A stretch of DNA of 24,524 nt, taken from positions 1 to 24,524 of the IMG/VR virus record IMGVR_UViG_3300031208_000196, one strand, 5' to 3'. The notes beneath the pieces were generated by a model. The model worked only from the letters and a program-made list of their open reading frames with translations. It made no database searches and had not been told where the DNA came from. The position numbers and the translations under genes are program-made. This stretch comes from a virus. Shown here piece after piece: positions 7,134 to 21,056 of the stretch (positions are counted from its first letter, which is position 1; the number at the start of each line of letters is the position of its first letter).

Positions 7134-7339
7134 TCCTGCTTTCGCCCGCTGTTGACGTAGAAACCAAACCAGGCGGCGGCACCGCCCCAGATCACGCTGG
7201 CGTAAAGCTGCTGAGGGGTGGCCGGATCGCCCAGGGCGGTGAACCACTGGTGAGTGTCAAAGCACAACCATCCGTAAAGGATGACCAACAGGCGAGGGAC
7301 AACGCGCCAGGCGTCCAGCTGCTCCGGAGTGAATTTCAC
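7130..7339 (-). CDS. Small two-helix membrane protein, candidate holin
   Basis: The 69-aa product has two probable membrane helices (about residues 13-33, VVPRLLVILYGWLCF, and 44-62, LYASVIWGGAAAWFGFYV) joined by a short polar loop, and a charged C-terminal end (SGRKQE). It lies between the endolysin and Rz with four-base ATGA overlaps on both sides. Size, topology and position fit a class II holin. A second membrane protein upstream of the endolysin competes for that role, so one could be the holin and the other an antiholin or accessory protein. Confidence 0.72.
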   Translation of the reverse strand: MKFTPEQLDAWRVVPRLLVILYGWLCFDTHQWFTALGDPATPQQLYASVIWGGAAAWFGFYVNSGRKQE

Positions 7340-8133
7340 GCGGCACGCCCCAGCTGCCGGTACCGGTCATAAGCTGTGGCCATGCGGGTGTCGTACTGGT
7401 TGCGGGCGTAGGCCGGGCCGTTGTAGCGTTCGGCAAAGGCGGGCCAGTCCCGGTCTTTCAATGCGGCGTGCAAGGCTTTGTCCTGTTTGATGAAGCGAAC
7501 AAAGGCTTCCAGGTGTTCACACTCGCTTCGGTGCATTGCTTCCGAATAGTCAGCGGCGGAGGCGTACCCCAATCCCTGCCAGTGAAAGCCCATGATCTGG
7601 AACAGGCCCCAACTGGCTGACTCGATGGCAGTGGATCGGTCGATAGCGCTGGCCCGTTTCAATCGTCGCCATTCACCATCGCCGCCAACGTATCCGCCTG
7701 GGTCTTCATTGACGATGGCCGGGAACTTGGCCGCATTGTGGGCGCGTGCTGAATTATCCAGTCGGCGGAACATGACGTGACGCTCGAAGAGAATGACCGG
7801 ACGGCCAGACGGCAGGAAGCCGCTTTCCTTGCTCTCCACTTCGGTTACCGCCTTGATGGCAGCCAGCTGAACCCCGAGTTTTCGAGCGGCGGCCTTCAGG
7901 TCTTTTTCGCAGAGCTCCTTTCCGGAGTTTTGGGTGCTGTTCGGGTTCAGCCTGCCCAGTGTTGCCGGCCCGGCGACACCGTCGACCATTAACCCCTGAT
8001 CACGCTGGAAGCGGATGACCGCCTTTTCGGTGGCGTCGCCAAACCACCCATCCACTTCAATGGCGACACCCGTTGATTTCAGGGCCTGTTGAAGTGCGGC
8101 CACATGCTGTCCTACGTCTCCGATCCGGATCAT
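7336..8133 (-). CDS. Endolysin: peptidoglycan-binding domain plus N-acetylmuramidase
   Basis: The 265-aa product has an N-terminal PG_binding_1 domain (residues about 1-60, with ALQQALKSTGVAIEVDGWFG and FQRDQGLMVDGVAGPATL) and a C-terminal N-acetylmuramidase domain of the DUF3380 type (about 75-262). The probable catalytic glutamate is E100 in AVTEVESKESGF; the SASWGLFQIMGFHW and RYNGPAYARNQYDTRM segments are also typical. It would cleave the glycan backbone during lysis. There is no signal peptide or SAR helix, so release should need a holin, and candidates flank it. The ATG overlaps the upstream stop (TGATG). Confidence 0.92.
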   Translation of the reverse strand: MIRIGDVGQHVAALQQALKSTGVAIEVDGWFGDATEKAVIRFQRDQGLMVDGVAGPATLGRLNPNSTQNSGKELCEKDLKAAARKLGVQLAAIKAVTEVESKESGFLPSGRPVILFERHVMFRRLDNSARAHNAAKFPAIVNEDPGGYVGGDGEWRRLKRASAIDRSTAIESASWGLFQIMGFHWQGLGYASAADYSEAMHRSECEHLEAFVRFIKQDKALHAALKDRDWPAFAERYNGPAYARNQYDTRMATAYDRYRQLGRAA

Positions 8134-8546
8134 CAGCTGTTTGCTCCTATCAAGGTCAGTGCTGCGCTGAAAAGCTCTTTACGCAGGGCGAAACCAAGCG
8201 CTGCGATGCCAATAAGCACCCAGATTGCGCCCGCGAAAAACCAGACCTTTCGGGAAAGCCCGGAAACGATTTTACCCAAGCCATCGATCGCTTCAGCGGT
8301 GGTTTTATCGCTTTTTTCTATGTACTCCTTGTTCTGCTCGAGGAACTTCTCCAGCGCTTCCTTGGTTTCTTTTTGCTGCTCCTTTTGGCTCACAGTGAAC
8401 TCCCGCAGGTCGCCGCGGATGTCAGAAACGGCGTTCTCCAGGGCGTTTACCCTGGGGTGGAGATCTTCCAGTTGTCTGAGTCTCGCCGCCCAGTCGAGGG
8501 CGACCATTTCTTGCAGTTGCATCGCTTCGGTCCGTTGTTCAGGCAT
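8133..8546 (-). CDS. Coiled-coil protein with C-terminal membrane helix, lysis cassette (holin-like or XhlA-like)
   Basis: The 137-aa product is a long charged coiled coil (about residues 20-95, with RLRQLEDLHPRVNALENAV and KEQQKETKEALEKFLEQ) followed by one membrane helix (101-121, VWFFAGAIWVLIGIAALGFAL) and a short tail. This resembles the XhlA / tail-anchored holin-partner layout rather than a classic holin. It directly precedes the endolysin, with a TGATG overlap, and a GAGGAG Shine-Dalgarno overlaps the stop of gene X. A lysis role is inferred from position and topology. Confidence 0.72.
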   Translation of the reverse strand: MPEQRTEAMQLQEMVALDWAARLRQLEDLHPRVNALENAVSDIRGDLREFTVSQKEQQKETKEALEKFLEQNKEYIEKSDKTTAEAIDGLGKIVSGLSRKVWFFAGAIWVLIGIAALGFALRKELFSAALTLIGANS

Positions 8547-12173: not shown

Positions 12174-13937
12174 ATGGATAAGACTGTCGAATCGGATTAC
12201 CGCGATCACTTTGTGAAGGCACGCACCCTCTACTGGATGGGATGGCGAGCGCAGCGCATTGCCGATGAACTGGGCATCAGTCCTCAGCTGTTTCACAACT
12301 GGAAAAAGCGGTTCAGCTGGGACGAAGCCGGGCCGATCCAGCGGGTGGAGAGCTCGCTGGAAGCCCGCATGGTTCAGCTGGTGTTCAAGGATGAAAAAGA
12401 GGGGAAGGACTTCAAGGAAATTGACTTGTTGGGCCGGCAGATCGAACGGCTGGCCAGGGTGCATAAATACGAAGAGTCCGGGCGCGAATCAGACCTGAAC
12501 CCGAACATCCAGGAGCGCAACAAGGCACCGCGAAAGGCCAAGAACGATATCGGCGATGAAGGGCTGGAAGAGCTGACCAGCGCTTTCGATAAATCGCTGT
12601 TTGACTACCAGCACAAATGGAAGGTGGCTGGGCTCACCCACCGGATCCGCAATATTCTGAAGTCCCGGCAGATCGGCGCCACCTGGTACTTTGCCCGCGA
12701 AGCGATCGTGGACGCCTTCCACACTGGTAAGAACAAGATCTTCCTGAGTGCGTCGAAGGCCCAGGCTCATGTTTTCCGGCAGTACATCGTTCAGTTCGTC
12801 AAGGACACCGCCGGCGTTGAACTGCGCGGTGATCCCCTGGTGTTGCCCAACGGCGCCACCCTGTATTTCCTCGGTACCAACGTGCGAACAGCCCAGAGCT
12901 ATCACGGCGATCTGTACATGGATGAGTACTTCTGGATCCAGAGCTTCCAGCAGTTCCGGAAAGTCGCATCCGGTATGGCCATGCACAAGAAGTGGAGCCA
13001 GACCTACATTTCCACGCCTTCCGCGATCACCCACGAAGCCTATCCGTTCTGGACTGGCGAGCAGTTCAACAAGCGCCGGGCCAAAGATAAGCGGGTGTCC
13101 ATCGACACATCGCACGCCGCGCTGGCTGAAGGAAAGGCATGTGATGATGGGCAGTGGCGCCAGATTGTGACGGTAGAAGATGCCATCGCCGGCGGCTGTG
13201 ACCTGTTCGATATCGACCAGCTGCAGATGGAGTACTCCGCGGACGAATACTCAAATCTGCTGATGTGCCAGTTCGTTGACGACACCCACGCCGTGTTCCC
13301 GCTCGCCAAGCTTCAGCGCTGCATGGTCGACAGCTGGGTGGAGTGGCGCGAACTAAAGCCATACGCCGAAAGGCCGTTGGGTGATCTGGAAGTGTGGCTG
13401 GGCTATGACCCATCCGGCGGCGGGGACGATGGCGACGGCGCCGGCCTGGTGGTGGTTCTGCCTTCAAAATCCTCCAATAAACCTCACCGGGTGGTGGAGA
13501 AGGTCCGCCTTCGTGGCCTGGATTACGAGCGCCAGGCAGAAGAGATACGCAAACTGACCAAACGCTATAACGTGTCGTTTATCGGCATGGACACTACCGG
13601 CCTGGGTGAAGCCGTGGCGGAGCTGGTGGAAAAGTTCTTCCCGTCGGTAACCCGTTTCAACTACTCGCCGGATGTGAAGGCCCGGCTGGTGATCAAAACC
13701 CAGAACATCATCGACCATGGCCGGCTCCAGTTCGATGCCGGCTGGAGCGATATGGCGCAAAGCTTCATGGCGATTCGACGTGCCATGACAGATTCACAGA
13801 GACAGCTCACCTACAAGTCCGGCCGCAGTGAAGACACCGGCCATGCCGATCTGGCATGGGCGGTGATGCACGCGTTGTCGAATGAACCCCTCGAAGGGCC
13901 CACCGAAAAGGGTGGCAGCATGATGGAGATTTACTGA
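12174..13937 (+). CDS. P: Large terminase subunit P (ATPase/nuclease)
   Basis: The 587-aa product matches P2 gpP (about 590 aa). It has an N-terminal helix-turn-helix (about 22-46, WRAQRIADELGISPQLFHNWKKRF). The ATPase domain has a Walker-A-like KSRQIGAT (163-170) and a Walker B LYMDE (247-251). The RNase H-like nuclease has LGYDPSGGGDD (D412) and FIGMDTTGLGEAVAEL. It packages DNA into proheads with M. It is divergent from O, as in P2. The start codon has only weak Shine-Dalgarno sequence (TTTAGG), while a candidate activator site lies 56 bp upstream. Confidence 0.95.
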   Translation: MDKTVESDYRDHFVKARTLYWMGWRAQRIADELGISPQLFHNWKKRFSWDEAGPIQRVESSLEARMVQLVFKDEKEGKDFKEIDLLGRQIERLARVHKYEESGRESDLNPNIQERNKAPRKAKNDIGDEGLEELTSAFDKSLFDYQHKWKVAGLTHRIRNILKSRQIGATWYFAREAIVDAFHTGKNKIFLSASKAQAHVFRQYIVQFVKDTAGVELRGDPLVLPNGATLYFLGTNVRTAQSYHGDLYMDEYFWIQSFQQFRKVASGMAMHKKWSQTYISTPSAITHEAYPFWTGEQFNKRRAKDKRVSIDTSHAALAEGKACDDGQWRQIVTVEDAIAGGCDLFDIDQLQMEYSADEYSNLLMCQFVDDTHAVFPLAKLQRCMVDSWVEWRELKPYAERPLGDLEVWLGYDPSGGGDDGDGAGLVVVLPSKSSNKPHRVVEKVRLRGLDYERQAEEIRKLTKRYNVSFIGMDTTGLGEAVAELVEKFFPSVTRFNYSPDVKARLVIKTQNIIDHGRLQFDAGWSDMAQSFMAIRRAMTDSQRQLTYKSGRSEDTGHADLAWAVMHALSNEPLEGPTEKGGSMMEIY

Positions 13938-14923
13938 TGAGCAAAAGCATTGAAGCGTTCACTTTTGGTGAGCCGGTACCGGTGATGGACAGGTACGACA
14001 TGCTCTACACCGGCTGCTGGATGGCCGGCCAGGATTACTACGAACCACCGGTCGATATGGCTGCACTCGCCAAGTCCTACCGATCCACCGCTCACCATGG
14101 CAGCGCATTGCAGGTTAAGCGCAACATTCTGGTGAAAACCTTCCAGCCCACTCAATACCTGAGCCGGCAAGACTTCGCGCGCATGGCGATGGATTACCTG
14201 GTGTTCGGCAACCTTTACGGCGAAAAACTGGAAAACCGGATGGGGCGACTGATCCAGGTGAAGCCGATTCTGGCGAAATACTGCCGGCGAGGCGTGAAGC
14301 CCGGATCCTTCTGGTGGGTTCATGACTGGATGAACCACACGGAATTCGCAATGGGGAGCGTCGTTCACCTAATGGAGCCAGACATTGACCAGGAGCTGTA
14401 CGGTGTTCCCGATTATCTGGGCTCGCTTCAGTCCGCCTGGTTGAACGAATCCGCCACACTGTTCCGCCGCAAGTACTACCAGAACGGAAGCCATGCCGGT
14501 TTCGTGATGTACATGACGGACGCCACCCAGAGCGCGGATGATGTCGACAACCTGAGAAATGCACTGAAGGAAAGCAAGGGCCCGGGCAACTTCAAAAACC
14601 TGTTCGTCTACGCCCCCAATGGCAAGAAGGACGGCCTGCAGGTGATCCCGGTCAGCGAGGTAGCTGCCAAGGATGATTTCTGGAACATCAAAAATGCCAC
14701 CCGCGATGACCAGCTGGCCGGGCACCGGGTTCCGCCCCAGCTGATGGGCATAATTCCCACCAACACATCCGGCTTCGGTGACGCAGAGAAGGCGGCCCGC
14801 GTCTTCGCCGCCAACGAACTGGAGCCCCTGCAGGAACGCTTGTTGGAGATGAACGACATCGTGGGCAAGGAAGTGATCAAGTTCAAACCTTACACCCTGG
14901 GGGAACTCTCCCCCGACACCTGA
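13937..14923 (+). CDS. Q: Portal protein Q
   Basis: The 328-aa product matches the P2 gpQ portal family (about 344 aa), with IEAFTFGEPVPVMDRYDML near the start, HHGSALQVKRNILVKTF, LSRQDFARMAMDYLVFGNLY, and the C-terminal QLAGHRVPPQLMGIIPTNTSGFGDAEKAA signature. It forms the dodecameric DNA gate at one capsid vertex. The ATG overlaps the stop of P (TGATG). A strong terminator follows 27 bp after its stop codon. Confidence 0.94.
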   Translation: MSKSIEAFTFGEPVPVMDRYDMLYTGCWMAGQDYYEPPVDMAALAKSYRSTAHHGSALQVKRNILVKTFQPTQYLSRQDFARMAMDYLVFGNLYGEKLENRMGRLIQVKPILAKYCRRGVKPGSFWWVHDWMNHTEFAMGSVVHLMEPDIDQELYGVPDYLGSLQSAWLNESATLFRRKYYQNGSHAGFVMYMTDATQSADDVDNLRNALKESKGPGNFKNLFVYAPNGKKDGLQVIPVSEVAAKDDFWNIKNATRDDQLAGHRVPPQLMGIIPTNTSGFGDAEKAARVFAANELEPLQERLLEMNDIVGKEVIKFKPYTLGELSPDT

Positions 14924-14950: not shown

Positions 14951-14975
14951 GGCCACCTTCGGGTGGTCTTTTTTT
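14951..14975 (+). terminator. Rho-independent terminator after Q
   Basis: GGCCACC (14951-14957), a TTCG tetraloop (14958-14961) and GGTGGTC (14962-14968) form a 7-bp stem with one G-T wobble, followed by seven T residues (14969-14975). It ends the rightward P-Q late operon and would protect the downstream repeat region from late transcription. Confidence 0.93.
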
Positions 14976-15140
14976 GTGCCCGACATACGCCCCCCGGCGG
15001 GGGTGCTCACGCCCACAGCTCGCGGTCACCCCACCCCACCTGCGGGCTCTTGGTACTGCGATTATTCAAGGCCCACGGATAACCAACAAGGGTACGCACG
15101 TAAGTCATTGATTGTTGGTTGCTGGGAGCCTGAGAAAGTA
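14976..15140. other. Non-coding stretch downstream of Q, expected cos neighbourhood
   Basis: No gene is visible. By P2 synteny the cohesive-end (cos) packaging site lies downstream of Q, so it may be in this stretch or in the repeat element that follows; I do not recognise a cos sequence. The first part is C/G-rich with C- and G-runs. AACCAACAA (15081-15089) and TTGTTGGTT (15112-15120) are a perfect 9-bp inverted repeat with a 22-bp spacer. Confidence 0.4.
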
Positions 15141-15424
15141 GGGGGGCTTCGGAAAAGTGTAACAACGTAACAGGGCCGGATATTGGCTTTTATGCTGCTG
15201 ATATATATAGGGTTTTTCTGTTACACCTAAAGTGTAATAAAACGTAACGAAAACGTTACATCGTTGATTTTATTAGGGTGCCTATAGGCATTCCGTTACA
15301 GTTAGATAGTGTAACAACATTACGTTTTTATCTTCTAAAGTGTAACAACTTAATTCTAGGAATATCAGATAGATAGATACAATTATTACACTTATTACGT
15401 TTGTTACACTTTTCCGAACCCCCC
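15141..15424. repeat. 284-bp AT-rich inverted element centred on a 12-bp palindrome
   Basis: The two halves are imperfect inverted copies. The outer arms (15141-15170 and 15395-15424) share GGGGGG, TTCGGAAAAGTGTAACAA and CGTAA with two differences. Moving inwards, matched pairs are CTGATAT 15198-15204 with ATATCAG 15362-15368; TGTTACAC..TAAA 15219-15231 with TAAAGTGTAACA 15336-15347; ACGTAA 15242-15247 with TTACGT 15320-15325; and GTTACA 15255-15260 with TGTAAC 15310-15315. All pairs are symmetric to within about 5 bp around TGCCTATAGGCA (15279-15290). GTGTAA/TTACAC occurs seven times. The element lies between convergent operons. An origin, telomere-resolution site, partition site or packaging site are all possible. 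Confidence 0.85.
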
Positions 15425-15757
15425 AAACATTCTGAGCCAGCACGCCCCGCACGCACGCCCGCACACGCGTATATCACTCCAGAATATCCACACTTTCATA
15501 AACAGAAAGACTCCATCCTTGGCTTCGTGGCGATGGTGTGTGGCGGGCGGCAATACCTGGTCTTGGTCTCAGTCACCGGCGGCAGCACGTCGACAACGCT
15601 AACGTATGTTATTGATTACTGGGGCGGGGAATGTGCGCTTGTGAGCGGGGGGATTCTGCTGGGAGAGGCTTTAAGATGCTGAATATAATAGAGATAAGCA
15701 TATCGGTGACGTGGCTCAAGCCACTCCTGGCCGGGTTTTCTGCGTGGTGGGGCCATA
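15425..15757. other. Non-coding stretch between the inverted element and the early operon end
   Basis: I see no convincing gene in these 333 bp. It starts with a CGCAC-rich low-complexity tract and ends next to the excisionase-like gene. GTGGCTCAAGCCAC (15711-15724) is a short hairpin downstream of that gene, but no T-tract follows on either strand, so I do not call it a terminator. Short plus-strand frames are present and are discussed among the rejected items. Confidence 0.5.
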
Positions 15758-15997
15758 TTATTGCAACTGTTCTGCCAGATCCTGAAGTAATCCTAGCTCC
15801 TGCGGGTTCTCCGGCAAACCCCGGATCCGCCGTTCCATGGTTTCGAAGTAGGTATCCAGATCAATTCTCCAGCGCCGGCCGTCGCGGAACGCGCCCGGGA
15901 TGTCCGGGCAACGCCTGCGAATGGTGGCGAGCGACGGCGGCTGGTTGTCTTCGCAATAAACCACCTCGATGAAGGTCTGTATTGAGACCGGTCTCAC
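15758..15997 (-). CDS. Excisionase-like winged-helix DNA-binding protein
   Basis: The 79-aa product resembles lambda-type Xis: a short N-terminal helix, then QPPSLATIRRRCPDIPGAFRDG, parallel to PRSLETVRRWVRE...PPPVKDG in lambda Xis, then a wing strand RRWRIDLDTYFE. Such proteins bend DNA at att sites and can also act as repressors. It is the last gene of the early operon and no integrase is next to it. The start is GTG with GGAGG about 9 nt upstream; it overlaps the preceding stop (GTGA). A Cox-like regulatory role is an alternative. Confidence 0.72.
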   Translation of the reverse strand: MRPVSIQTFIEVVYCEDNQPPSLATIRRRCPDIPGAFRDGRRWRIDLDTYFETMERRIRGLPENPQELGLLQDLAEQLQ

Positions 15998-18347: not shown

Positions 18348-21056
18348 TCACAGCTCTTTCTCAAAGATCCAGCACCGGACGCTGTCGCTGCCAAGACTGT
18401 TGCCCTGGCTGCGAATCACGGAACGGACGGTGCGGCTGGATTCGATGAACTTGCGGCTGCGCGATGTTTTCAGGTGGCGCTTTAGCTCGCTCATCGGTGG
18501 TATGCGCAGCTTCTCTTCTGCACACACATGCTCGAAGTGCTTCAGGTTGACGGCGATCAGCTTGGCTTCGTCACCGTAGTGGTTCAGCACCGGGTAGCTG
18601 TTCAGACCCTCGATGTAGTCAACCGCTTCCCAGAACTCCTGCACCATCGGGTGGTCCGCATTCACGGACGTTTGGCGCTCCAGGGCCATTTCCTGAACCA
18701 TCTCCCGCGCGGGCTCAAGGTAGGATTCGGGCAGCAGCTTCAGGCCATCCGGCCCCAGGCAATCCACCAGGGCCAGAAGCTGCCCGTGGTTTTTCGCAAT
18801 CCGGTGGATGCGGATGTCGGGCATCTCGGCCAGGGCTTTTTCGTACTGGGGGGCGCGCTCAGTCACCAGGCGCATTACCTTAGATTCGCCGGCGGTGGCC
18901 TGCAGCACGAAGCCGCTGACCTTTTCCATGGGCGTGCGTTCCAGCTTCTCGGCCAGGGCCTTGGTGGTCTCGTTGTGGTTTTCGCGGGTGACGTTCAGGT
19001 GCATGATGCGCTGCAGCACGGCATCGCTGGCGTTTACCTGGGCGTTCTGGCTGATCACGATGGCGCCACGGAAGGGCGGTTCGTAGGTGTCGTTGCCGCC
19101 GTTCTTCTGGCCACGGCTGCGCACGCTGCGGCCGTTGTAGGCGGTTTTCAACTCATCCCAGTCGAACTGTTTCTGCTTTCCGCCGGCGCCGTCCTGGTCG
19201 CGGTCGGACTCAATCAGCACAACCGGCAGGTTGGACACCTGGGCGAAGTTCCGGGCCCGGGCGGCTAGGGTGGCCTTGCTGGGGTCGAAGCCTTCGTAAT
19301 CCTGCCGGCCTACCAGCTTCCACAGGAATTCGATCAACGTGGATTTACCGGAGCCGGCTTCGCCCACAATCTCGATGAAGGGAAAGCTTTTGTGTGCCTT
19401 GCGGATCTGCTCGGCGAACAGCGTGCCCAGCCAGTAGGACAGGGCGATCACACCCTTGGGGCCGAAACAGTTGGCCAGATCCTGAGCCCAGCCGCGCTGG
19501 TAGTCTGCGGAGTTCTTATTGATGTTCAGGGCTACCGATTCCGACAGCGTTTTCACGCTCATGCGGCCGATGTCGTAGTAGTCTTCGTTGTTCAGCTCGT
19601 GTATCTGCCCGGCGTGAACGGCCAGCTCCGGGAATACCCAGGTTTCGTGCTCTTTGCTGTAGCCGATGAAATCGATGGTCTCGACAGTTTTAATGCCGGA
19701 GATTTGCTGCTTCAGCAGGCGGTCCAGCTGATGGCTGGAACCGGTCCACACGGCACCGGGCGCCACGCCCAGCAGGCGCTTCTTGAATTCGCTGGCGCTG
19801 GCCAGCTGGCCGCCGCTGAAGGTGTTCTTAACCGGCCGCCCGTCGTGCGGGAAATCCACACGGTAGTAGTACCAGCTTTCATCGGTGATCTTGTTGGCCA
19901 GGTAATACAGGGCGGTGGGGTAGCAGTTGGCGATCTCGATGACCGCGTTGCACTGTTCCAGGGCCCGGGTAACGATCTGCTTGTCCGTCAGCGGCTCGTC
20001 GCTTTCCTCCAGGTCGCTCATCGCCTTGTGGAATTCGTCCATGTTCAACTTGAACCAGAACAGGCGGTTGTTGAACCCGAAAGGGAATTCTTTCCGGTTG
20101 GTGTGCGTGTAGATGCGGTTGGCTTTCTCGCCAGCGCTGCGGGCAATGACCAGGTCGCCCTGGTAAAGGAATTCGTCGGTGGTCGGCTCGCCGTGTTCGT
20201 TGACCAGCTCGCCTCGCTGCCAGGCGTCGTTCCAGTCACGCTTGAACTTGCCTTCCCGGGGGATAACCGCAGCGCCTACCTTCAGGCCCTGTGACCGGGC
20301 GATGTTGGCAAACTTGCCAATGTAGCGAACACCGGCTTCGTCACCGTCCATGGCCCAGATGATGCGGGGCATGTCTTGGCCCGCTTTTTCCCGGGTGGCT
20401 GTCAGGGTGTCCAGGAACTTATCCGGGTAGTTGTTGCAGCTGAACGCGGCCACGGCGGGTATGCCGGCGTGGTACAGGGCGATCGCATCGAAGATGCCTT
20501 CCACCACCCAGAGCTCCTTGCCCTGGGACAGATCCAGCCCGGGCGGTGCCCAGGCCAGGCCTTTGAAGTTGGCGCCCCGGTTGAAGTGGGCTTTCATTTT
20601 GCCGAACCGGTGGGGCTTGTCGATCAGCCGTTCCCAGTGGTCGCGGTCGTTGATCTGGAAGCGCACGGTGGCGCTGCTGATGTTGCGCTCGTAATCCCAG
20701 TAGGTTTCCTGGTTGTACCAGCCCTTCACCACAGCCAGATCGAAGCCGCGGCCGTGCTTCATATACGCATCGGCCACTTCGGTACCGGTGGGCTTTTCGC
20801 CTTGCTTCAGGTCGGTTCTGGCGTAGCGCTCTGTCCAGCTGTCGAACAGATCCGGGAACAGCTCCTTTACGTGGTGCTGTTCACCGCAACGGCTCTCACG
20901 CCCGCACTTCACCATCCATGGTTCGTCGGTGCCCACGAAGGCTTCACGCTTGCCACAGGAGTGGCAGCGCAGGCGGCGCAGGAACTTGCCGCGCTCCAGG
21001 CCTTCGTAGTCACTCTGGAGCCGTAGAAGGATGTCGGCCCTTAGTTGGTCTTGCAT
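18348..21056 (-). CDS. Replicative primase-helicase (zinc-binding, Toprim and P-loop ATPase domains)
   Basis: The 902-aa product has a zinc-binding N-terminus (C31-x2-C34, then C51 and C57, with H61/H62), a Toprim primase domain with ELWVVEGIFDA (E186) and AMDGDEAG (D237 and D239), and a C-terminal ATPase with Walker A GEAGSGKS (565-572, K571) and Walker-B-like VVLIESD (613-618). The layout matches phage replication primase-helicases such as P4 alpha in general concept, though not in detail. It is the largest early gene and replaces the P2 rolling-circle gpA, which is absent. GGAG lies 8 nt before the ATG. It likely initiates theta-type replication, which is an inference. Confidence 0.88.
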   Translation of the reverse strand: MQDQLRADILLRLQSDYEGLERGKFLRRLRCHSCGKREAFVGTDEPWMVKCGRESRCGEQHHVKELFPDLFDSWTERYARTDLKQGEKPTGTEVADAYMKHGRGFDLAVVKGWYNQETYWDYERNISSATVRFQINDRDHWERLIDKPHRFGKMKAHFNRGANFKGLAWAPPGLDLSQGKELWVVEGIFDAIALYHAGIPAVAAFSCNNYPDKFLDTLTATREKAGQDMPRIIWAMDGDEAGVRYIGKFANIARSQGLKVGAAVIPREGKFKRDWNDAWQRGELVNEHGEPTTDEFLYQGDLVIARSAGEKANRIYTHTNRKEFPFGFNNRLFWFKLNMDEFHKAMSDLEESDEPLTDKQIVTRALEQCNAVIEIANCYPTALYYLANKITDESWYYYRVDFPHDGRPVKNTFSGGQLASASEFKKRLLGVAPGAVWTGSSHQLDRLLKQQISGIKTVETIDFIGYSKEHETWVFPELAVHAGQIHELNNEDYYDIGRMSVKTLSESVALNINKNSADYQRGWAQDLANCFGPKGVIALSYWLGTLFAEQIRKAHKSFPFIEIVGEAGSGKSTLIEFLWKLVGRQDYEGFDPSKATLAARARNFAQVSNLPVVLIESDRDQDGAGGKQKQFDWDELKTAYNGRSVRSRGQKNGGNDTYEPPFRGAIVISQNAQVNASDAVLQRIMHLNVTRENHNETTKALAEKLERTPMEKVSGFVLQATAGESKVMRLVTERAPQYEKALAEMPDIRIHRIAKNHGQLLALVDCLGPDGLKLLPESYLEPAREMVQEMALERQTSVNADHPMVQEFWEAVDYIEGLNSYPVLNHYGDEAKLIAVNLKHFEHVCAEEKLRIPPMSELKRHLKTSRSRKFIESSRTVRSVIRSQGNSLGSDSVRCWIFEKEL

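Follow-up and report, generated by a model that had tools for sequence, protein, structure and literature searches.

An inverted iteron array near the cos region of P2-like phages is a probable replication origin paired with a Toprim primase-helicase

The inverted element located between the portal gene and a convergent minus-strand ORF in a P2-like phage genome is interpreted here, with a probability of roughly 0.86, as a replication origin forming part of a module in which a single Toprim primase-AAA+ helicase would replace the gpA nickase of P2, the textbook rolling-circle temperate phage. This reading, deduced from sequence comparison, is favoured because the element exhibits a fixed inverted iteron layout that is kept in distant phages and, among P2-like relatives, occurs only together with the primase. 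The analysed stretch of DNA (here called the window) represents an entire IMG/VR record of 24,524 bases, itself probably a genome fragment. Its genes for terminase, portal and scaffold, as well as those for capsid and baseplate, are P2-type, and no integrase gene was identified (Table 1).

Table 1. Features of the window that bear on the proposed origin
Feature	Position	Strand	Basis
Inverted-iteron element, proposed replication origin	15130..15436	.	Dyad, iteron and layout analyses
Left outer arm: G-tract, TTCGGAAAA, first iteron	15130..15165	.	Complementarity; kept in relatives
Right outer arm	15401..15436	.	86% complementary to left arm; kept in relatives
Left outer tandem iteron pair; GTAAC cores 15159 and 15167, 8 bp apart	15157..15172	+	
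Right outer tandem iterons, inward-facing; cores 15385, 15394 and 15403, 9 bp apart	15383..15410	-	
Inner iterons: TGTTACAC (-), GTGTAATA (+), ACGTAAC (+)	15219..15248	.	
Conserved AT-rich central motif TCGTTGATTTTATTAGGG, near-IHF	15261..15278	+	Relatives' alignment; motif enrichment
Central palindrome TGCCTATAGGCA, unconserved	15279..15290	.	Comparison with relatives
Inner iterons right of centre; cores 15295 (-), 15311 (+), 15319 (-), 15342 (+)	15295..15346	.	
Exact match to IHF consensus, AATCAATGACTTA	15101..15113	-	Motif scan
Predicted cos overhang GGTGGGGTGGGGTGACCGC, separate from element	15022..15040	-	Similarity to P2/Smp131
Terminator-like hairpin after portal gene	14951..14968	+	Consensus match only
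902-aa Toprim primase-helicase (phrog_1139), proposed origin-binding initiator	18348..21056	-	
P2 gpP-like large terminase	12174..13937	+	
P2 gpQ-like portal	13937..14923	+	

The 307 bp of the element were shown to contain ~13 iteron cores (AAGTGTAACA-like), representing the several short-site copies within a compact AT-rich region that characterize iteron origins, and GTGTAA/TTACAC was observed seven times compared with 0.37 expected. The outer arms (36 nt each) are 86% complementary, and the dyad score of the element (42, gapped local alignment) lies far above that of 1000 dinucleotide shuffles (13.5 ± 2.5, maximum 24), confirming the inverted element of the preliminary description, although its true span is slightly wider than the 15141-15424 proposed there. 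The near-symmetry ascribed to the two halves holds for the outer arms, whereas the inner part without arms exhibits modest symmetry (32 of 1000 shuffles were equally good), because it is composed of iterons in both orientations and not of one long palindrome; a bidirectional array of short iterons is thus the more apt description of the element. The palindrome noted at its centre is present, but, unlike the arms, it is not kept even in close relatives. The other surroundings were largely as first described: the element is AT-rich (36% G+C compared with 59% for the contig) and is located between convergent genes, with the portal gene ending at 14923 and the next minus-strand ORF ending at 15758, while the supposed shielding terminator corresponds to a hairpin found by consensus match only, of which approximately one was expected by chance in the scan. 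This small minus-strand ORF (15758-15997) showed weak similarity to an excisionase (phrog_629, E 6e-4). No GC-skew turn was observed at the element, no exact DnaA box was found in the elements, and no Rfam RNA or tRNA was detected in the window.

Portal relatives were drawn from viral contigs and from Marinobacter, Halomonas, Ectothiorhodospiraceae and Iodobacter genomes; a DNA similarity search in phages yielded nothing useful. The elements of Marinobacter relatives are alignable to that of the window, as are the arms of Halomonas relatives, and an equivalent layout of near-equal span, each with its own iteron word, was observed in Marinobacter, Halomonas and Ectothiorhodospiraceae phages. 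Layout and near-equal span, again with a separate iteron word each, recur in the Pseudomonas phages Dobby and phi3, the Stenotrophomonas phage Smp131 and the Escherichia phage ESSI2. Across 20 elements, the iteron order '++-++...---' is near-constant, and nearly all have, at their outer ends, tandem pairs spaced by 8-9 bp that face inward (in L015, the right pair lies outside the pattern used) and span 249-283 bp in total, with 315 bp in phi3. Most other elements contain 8-17 iteron cores, and a looser pattern gave 23 in L188. Because the pairs of window-type elements are mismatched, these escaped a strict detector of tandem pairs, and looser word counts and inspection were used for them. The iteron word shifts in concert within an element, being GTGTAACA, AGTAACA, AGGTAAC, GGTAATT, CCGGAACA or CATCACA; by inspection, the word is GTGTAACA for Marinobacter, AAGGTAAC for Halomonas and Ectothiorhodospiraceae, and AGTAACA for L014. 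Furthermore, the IHF consensus was matched exactly 15 times in 19 elements compared with 0.72 expected.

In L008 (5446-5698), the element past a normal left arm matches that of the window in inverted orientation (68%), indicative of either a recombinant origin or an assembly chimera. The Pseudomonas aeruginosa 'plasmid p3' (NZ_CP077991.1), with a dyad at 41716-41990, looks like a Dobby-like phage fused to a second element, possibly a satellite, with DUF927, Toprim and integrase genes.

Among P2-like records, the element was found in all 26 that encode the primase and in which the region is visible, some of these being close kin (the window, L006, L064, L046, L047, L015, L028, L049, L050, L052, L062, L147, L148, L149, L169, L172, L179, L188, L187/G041, G046, G049, HboP_4908, Dobby, Smp131, phi3 and ESSI2; that of G041/L187 is degenerate and was recognized by eye), and in none of the 11 with P2 gpA (P2, G006, G009, G010, G014, G015, G019, G020, G021, G023 and G025; for G015 and G021, the scan covered the stretch around the portal gene). 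Records ending before the cos region (G001, G011, G013, G040, G047 and G048) were set aside as uninformative, as was G003, which carries a transposase gene there. Conversely, no match to PF05840 (gpA), the hallmark of a P2-type rolling-circle origin, was found in the primase-bearing viral relatives searched, a set outside which the window record lay. On a portal tree, well-supported branches require at least three changes of the module, out of a total of five; a tree-aware sign test has no power, because only two independent contrasts are supported (the best tree gives four), a number insufficient for significance. The case also rests on phi3, the element of which has a different address, at 7404-7720 directly after the primase gene and not beside the portal gene. 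No clear dyad was found in primase relatives outside P2-like phages (the Azospirillum phage-plasmid p2, with a RepA of its own, and record G045), and strict linkage to this initiator is therefore claimed for P2-like phages only. The prophage record L011 carries a transposase-like gene (7272-8473) after the portal terminator and ends without cos or dyad, and OR820920.1, labelled as a Bacillus pumilus phage, lacks the cos-dyad junction. The genes of the latter are P2-type, its primase shares 58% identity with that of the window, like that of the Halomonas phage, and its host label looks doubtful.

The same distribution bears on packaging. A GC-rich motif resembling the P2 cohesive end (GGCGAGGCGGGGAAAGCAC) and that of Smp131 (GGCGTGGCGGGGAGACGAG; PMC3931495) is kept in relatives whether or not they carry the element and is predicted, from this similarity, to be the cos overhang; cos and dyad are therefore neighbours and not identical. 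A GC-rich 19-nt cohesive end of the P2 type is thus predicted outside the element, and the placement of the element 'at the P2 cos position' was nearly right, the cos-like motif being separate, ~90 bp to the left, and kept where the element is absent. The iterons might nevertheless be bound by the terminase and flank cos in the manner of lambda, where cosB lies beside cosN, a reading consistent with the short distance to the cos-like motif and to the terminase and portal genes, and with the presence of IHF sites in lambda cos. However, the cos motif occurs with or without the element, gpA-type relatives with an identical terminase family lack it, and the phi3 element adjoins the primase gene instead of the portal gene, which renders the packaging site listed in the preliminary description improbable.

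The primase was shown to be the sole non-structural window protein common to all five cultured relatives (HboP_4908, Dobby, Smp131, phi3 and ESSI2), and it is lacking in P2. Pfam identified Toprim domains and no D5/Primase_C-type match in this protein. An AlphaFold model exhibited a mean pLDDT of 83.8 and a pTM of 0.60, the latter leaving domain placement unsure, and Foldseek matched it to SCCmec Cch (5dgk, 6.7e-12), SaPIBov1 Rep (8tch, 9.8e-11) and DnaG (5w33, 7.9e-6), suggesting that the primase is similar to a DnaG joined to an initiator helicase of the SaPI Rep/Cch type. In keeping with SaPI Rep/Cch-like proteins, the model contains an AAA+ helicase fold and a predicted C-terminal dsDNA-binding domain, the ~100 residues of which are modelled with the secondary-structure order of a winged helix; folded alone from a single sequence, this domain was poorly predicted (pLDDT 57) and that model was not used. 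The C-terminal domain differs between iteron classes. It also forms the end of a BRO-N antirepressor-like protein encoded by record G005 (L113:1144-1986); this protein might recognize these iterons as well and control replication.

Such a protein also illustrates how the sites could be bound by something other than the primase, the element then being a parS partition site or a repressor-operator array, linked to the primase module only by co-inheritance. Inverted multi-site arrays do occur in such systems, yet no ParA-type gene (PF13614, the search covering ParA only) was found in 14 records, and no non-structural window gene besides the primase is common to all element-bearing phages; a partition site, as had been suggested, or an operator array is accordingly about as improbable as a packaging site.

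Still less probable is an attP with arm-type and core sites for an integrase. An integrase gene is located nearby in HboP and Dobby, and IHF sites occur in attP too. However, the phi3 dyad does not adjoin int, the dyad of ESSI2 is ~1.7 kb away from a repeat cluster directly after int, and the attP of Smp131 was mapped near int, away from the dyad (PMC3931495). This second inverted cluster of ESSI2 (GTCCACA; L091:26743-26960) probably represents attP arm sites. The telomere of a linear plasmid prophage, proposed earlier and consistent with a large dyad with a central palindrome, is the least credible reading, as the centre is unconserved, neither a ResT/TelK-type protelomerase nor a ParA-type gene was found in 14 records, the sampled relatives sit in chromosomal contigs (with a tRNA-Leu close by in L049) and several encode integrases. 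A Tn3-type miniature transposon, considered because of the G-rich ends, was rejected, as there was no matching target duplication, second copy in the record or plasmid match, and the element is conserved at one place in vertical relatives.

If the element is a replication origin, the winged-helix-like C-terminal domain of the primase would bind the iterons, most tightly at the outer tandem pairs, and IHF would bend the DNA. Two helicase rings would then be assembled face to face, the AT-rich middle would melt, and primers would be laid by the same primase-helicase protein. Theta replication would yield circular genomes, to be cut at the neighbouring cos site by the P2-type terminase. No description of an origin in these phages was found in the open literature searched, subscription papers being outside the search. 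It is an evenly balanced proposition that these elements constitute an undescribed and widespread class of dyad-symmetric phage origin, at which inverted tandem iterons receive the primase-helicase in the form of two opposed rings, and that this initiator-origin pair, although origin and gene are kilobases apart, is swapped as a unit against the gpA nick-origin between similar P2-like phages.

The findings indicate that many P2-like phages replicate otherwise than P2, from an origin with a nameable place and shape that is now testable in the cultured phages Dobby, phi3, Smp131 and HboP_4908. The concerted drift of iteron words provides a natural data set for initiator DNA specificity, and the module swap is relevant to the question of which P2-like prophages are able to replicate in situ and to mobilize host DNA.

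Among known systems, P2 shares the phage family and virion genes with the window, whereas it employs gpA with a nick site inside gene A and lacks the inverted-iteron cluster. In P4, which partners P2-type capsids, a single protein (alpha) binds the origin (ori1/crr, with iterons), unwinds and primes, as is proposed here for the primase-helicase; the P4 ori and crr are two separate sites, unlike the single element described here. SaPI Rep and SCCmec Cch, both folds of which are matched by the primase model, are self-loading initiator helicases with an iteron origin, and SaPI Rep, apparently in the form of two hexamers, contacts this origin via its C-terminal domain (PMC7581432). The phi3 element is located directly downstream of its initiator gene, as in SaPIs; elsewhere, the proposed origin is usually kilobases from the gene and near cos, in a P2-like phage and not a satellite, with different iteron words and with a DnaG-like Toprim primase fused to the helicase. 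Iteron plasmid origins (RK2, P1, R6K and pSC101) likewise combine iterons, IHF and AT-rich unwinding DNA (reviewed in PMC4980987), but their Rep proteins recruit host DnaB and often DnaA, whereas the elements described here are devoid of an exact DnaA box and would be served by a phage-encoded helicase-primase.
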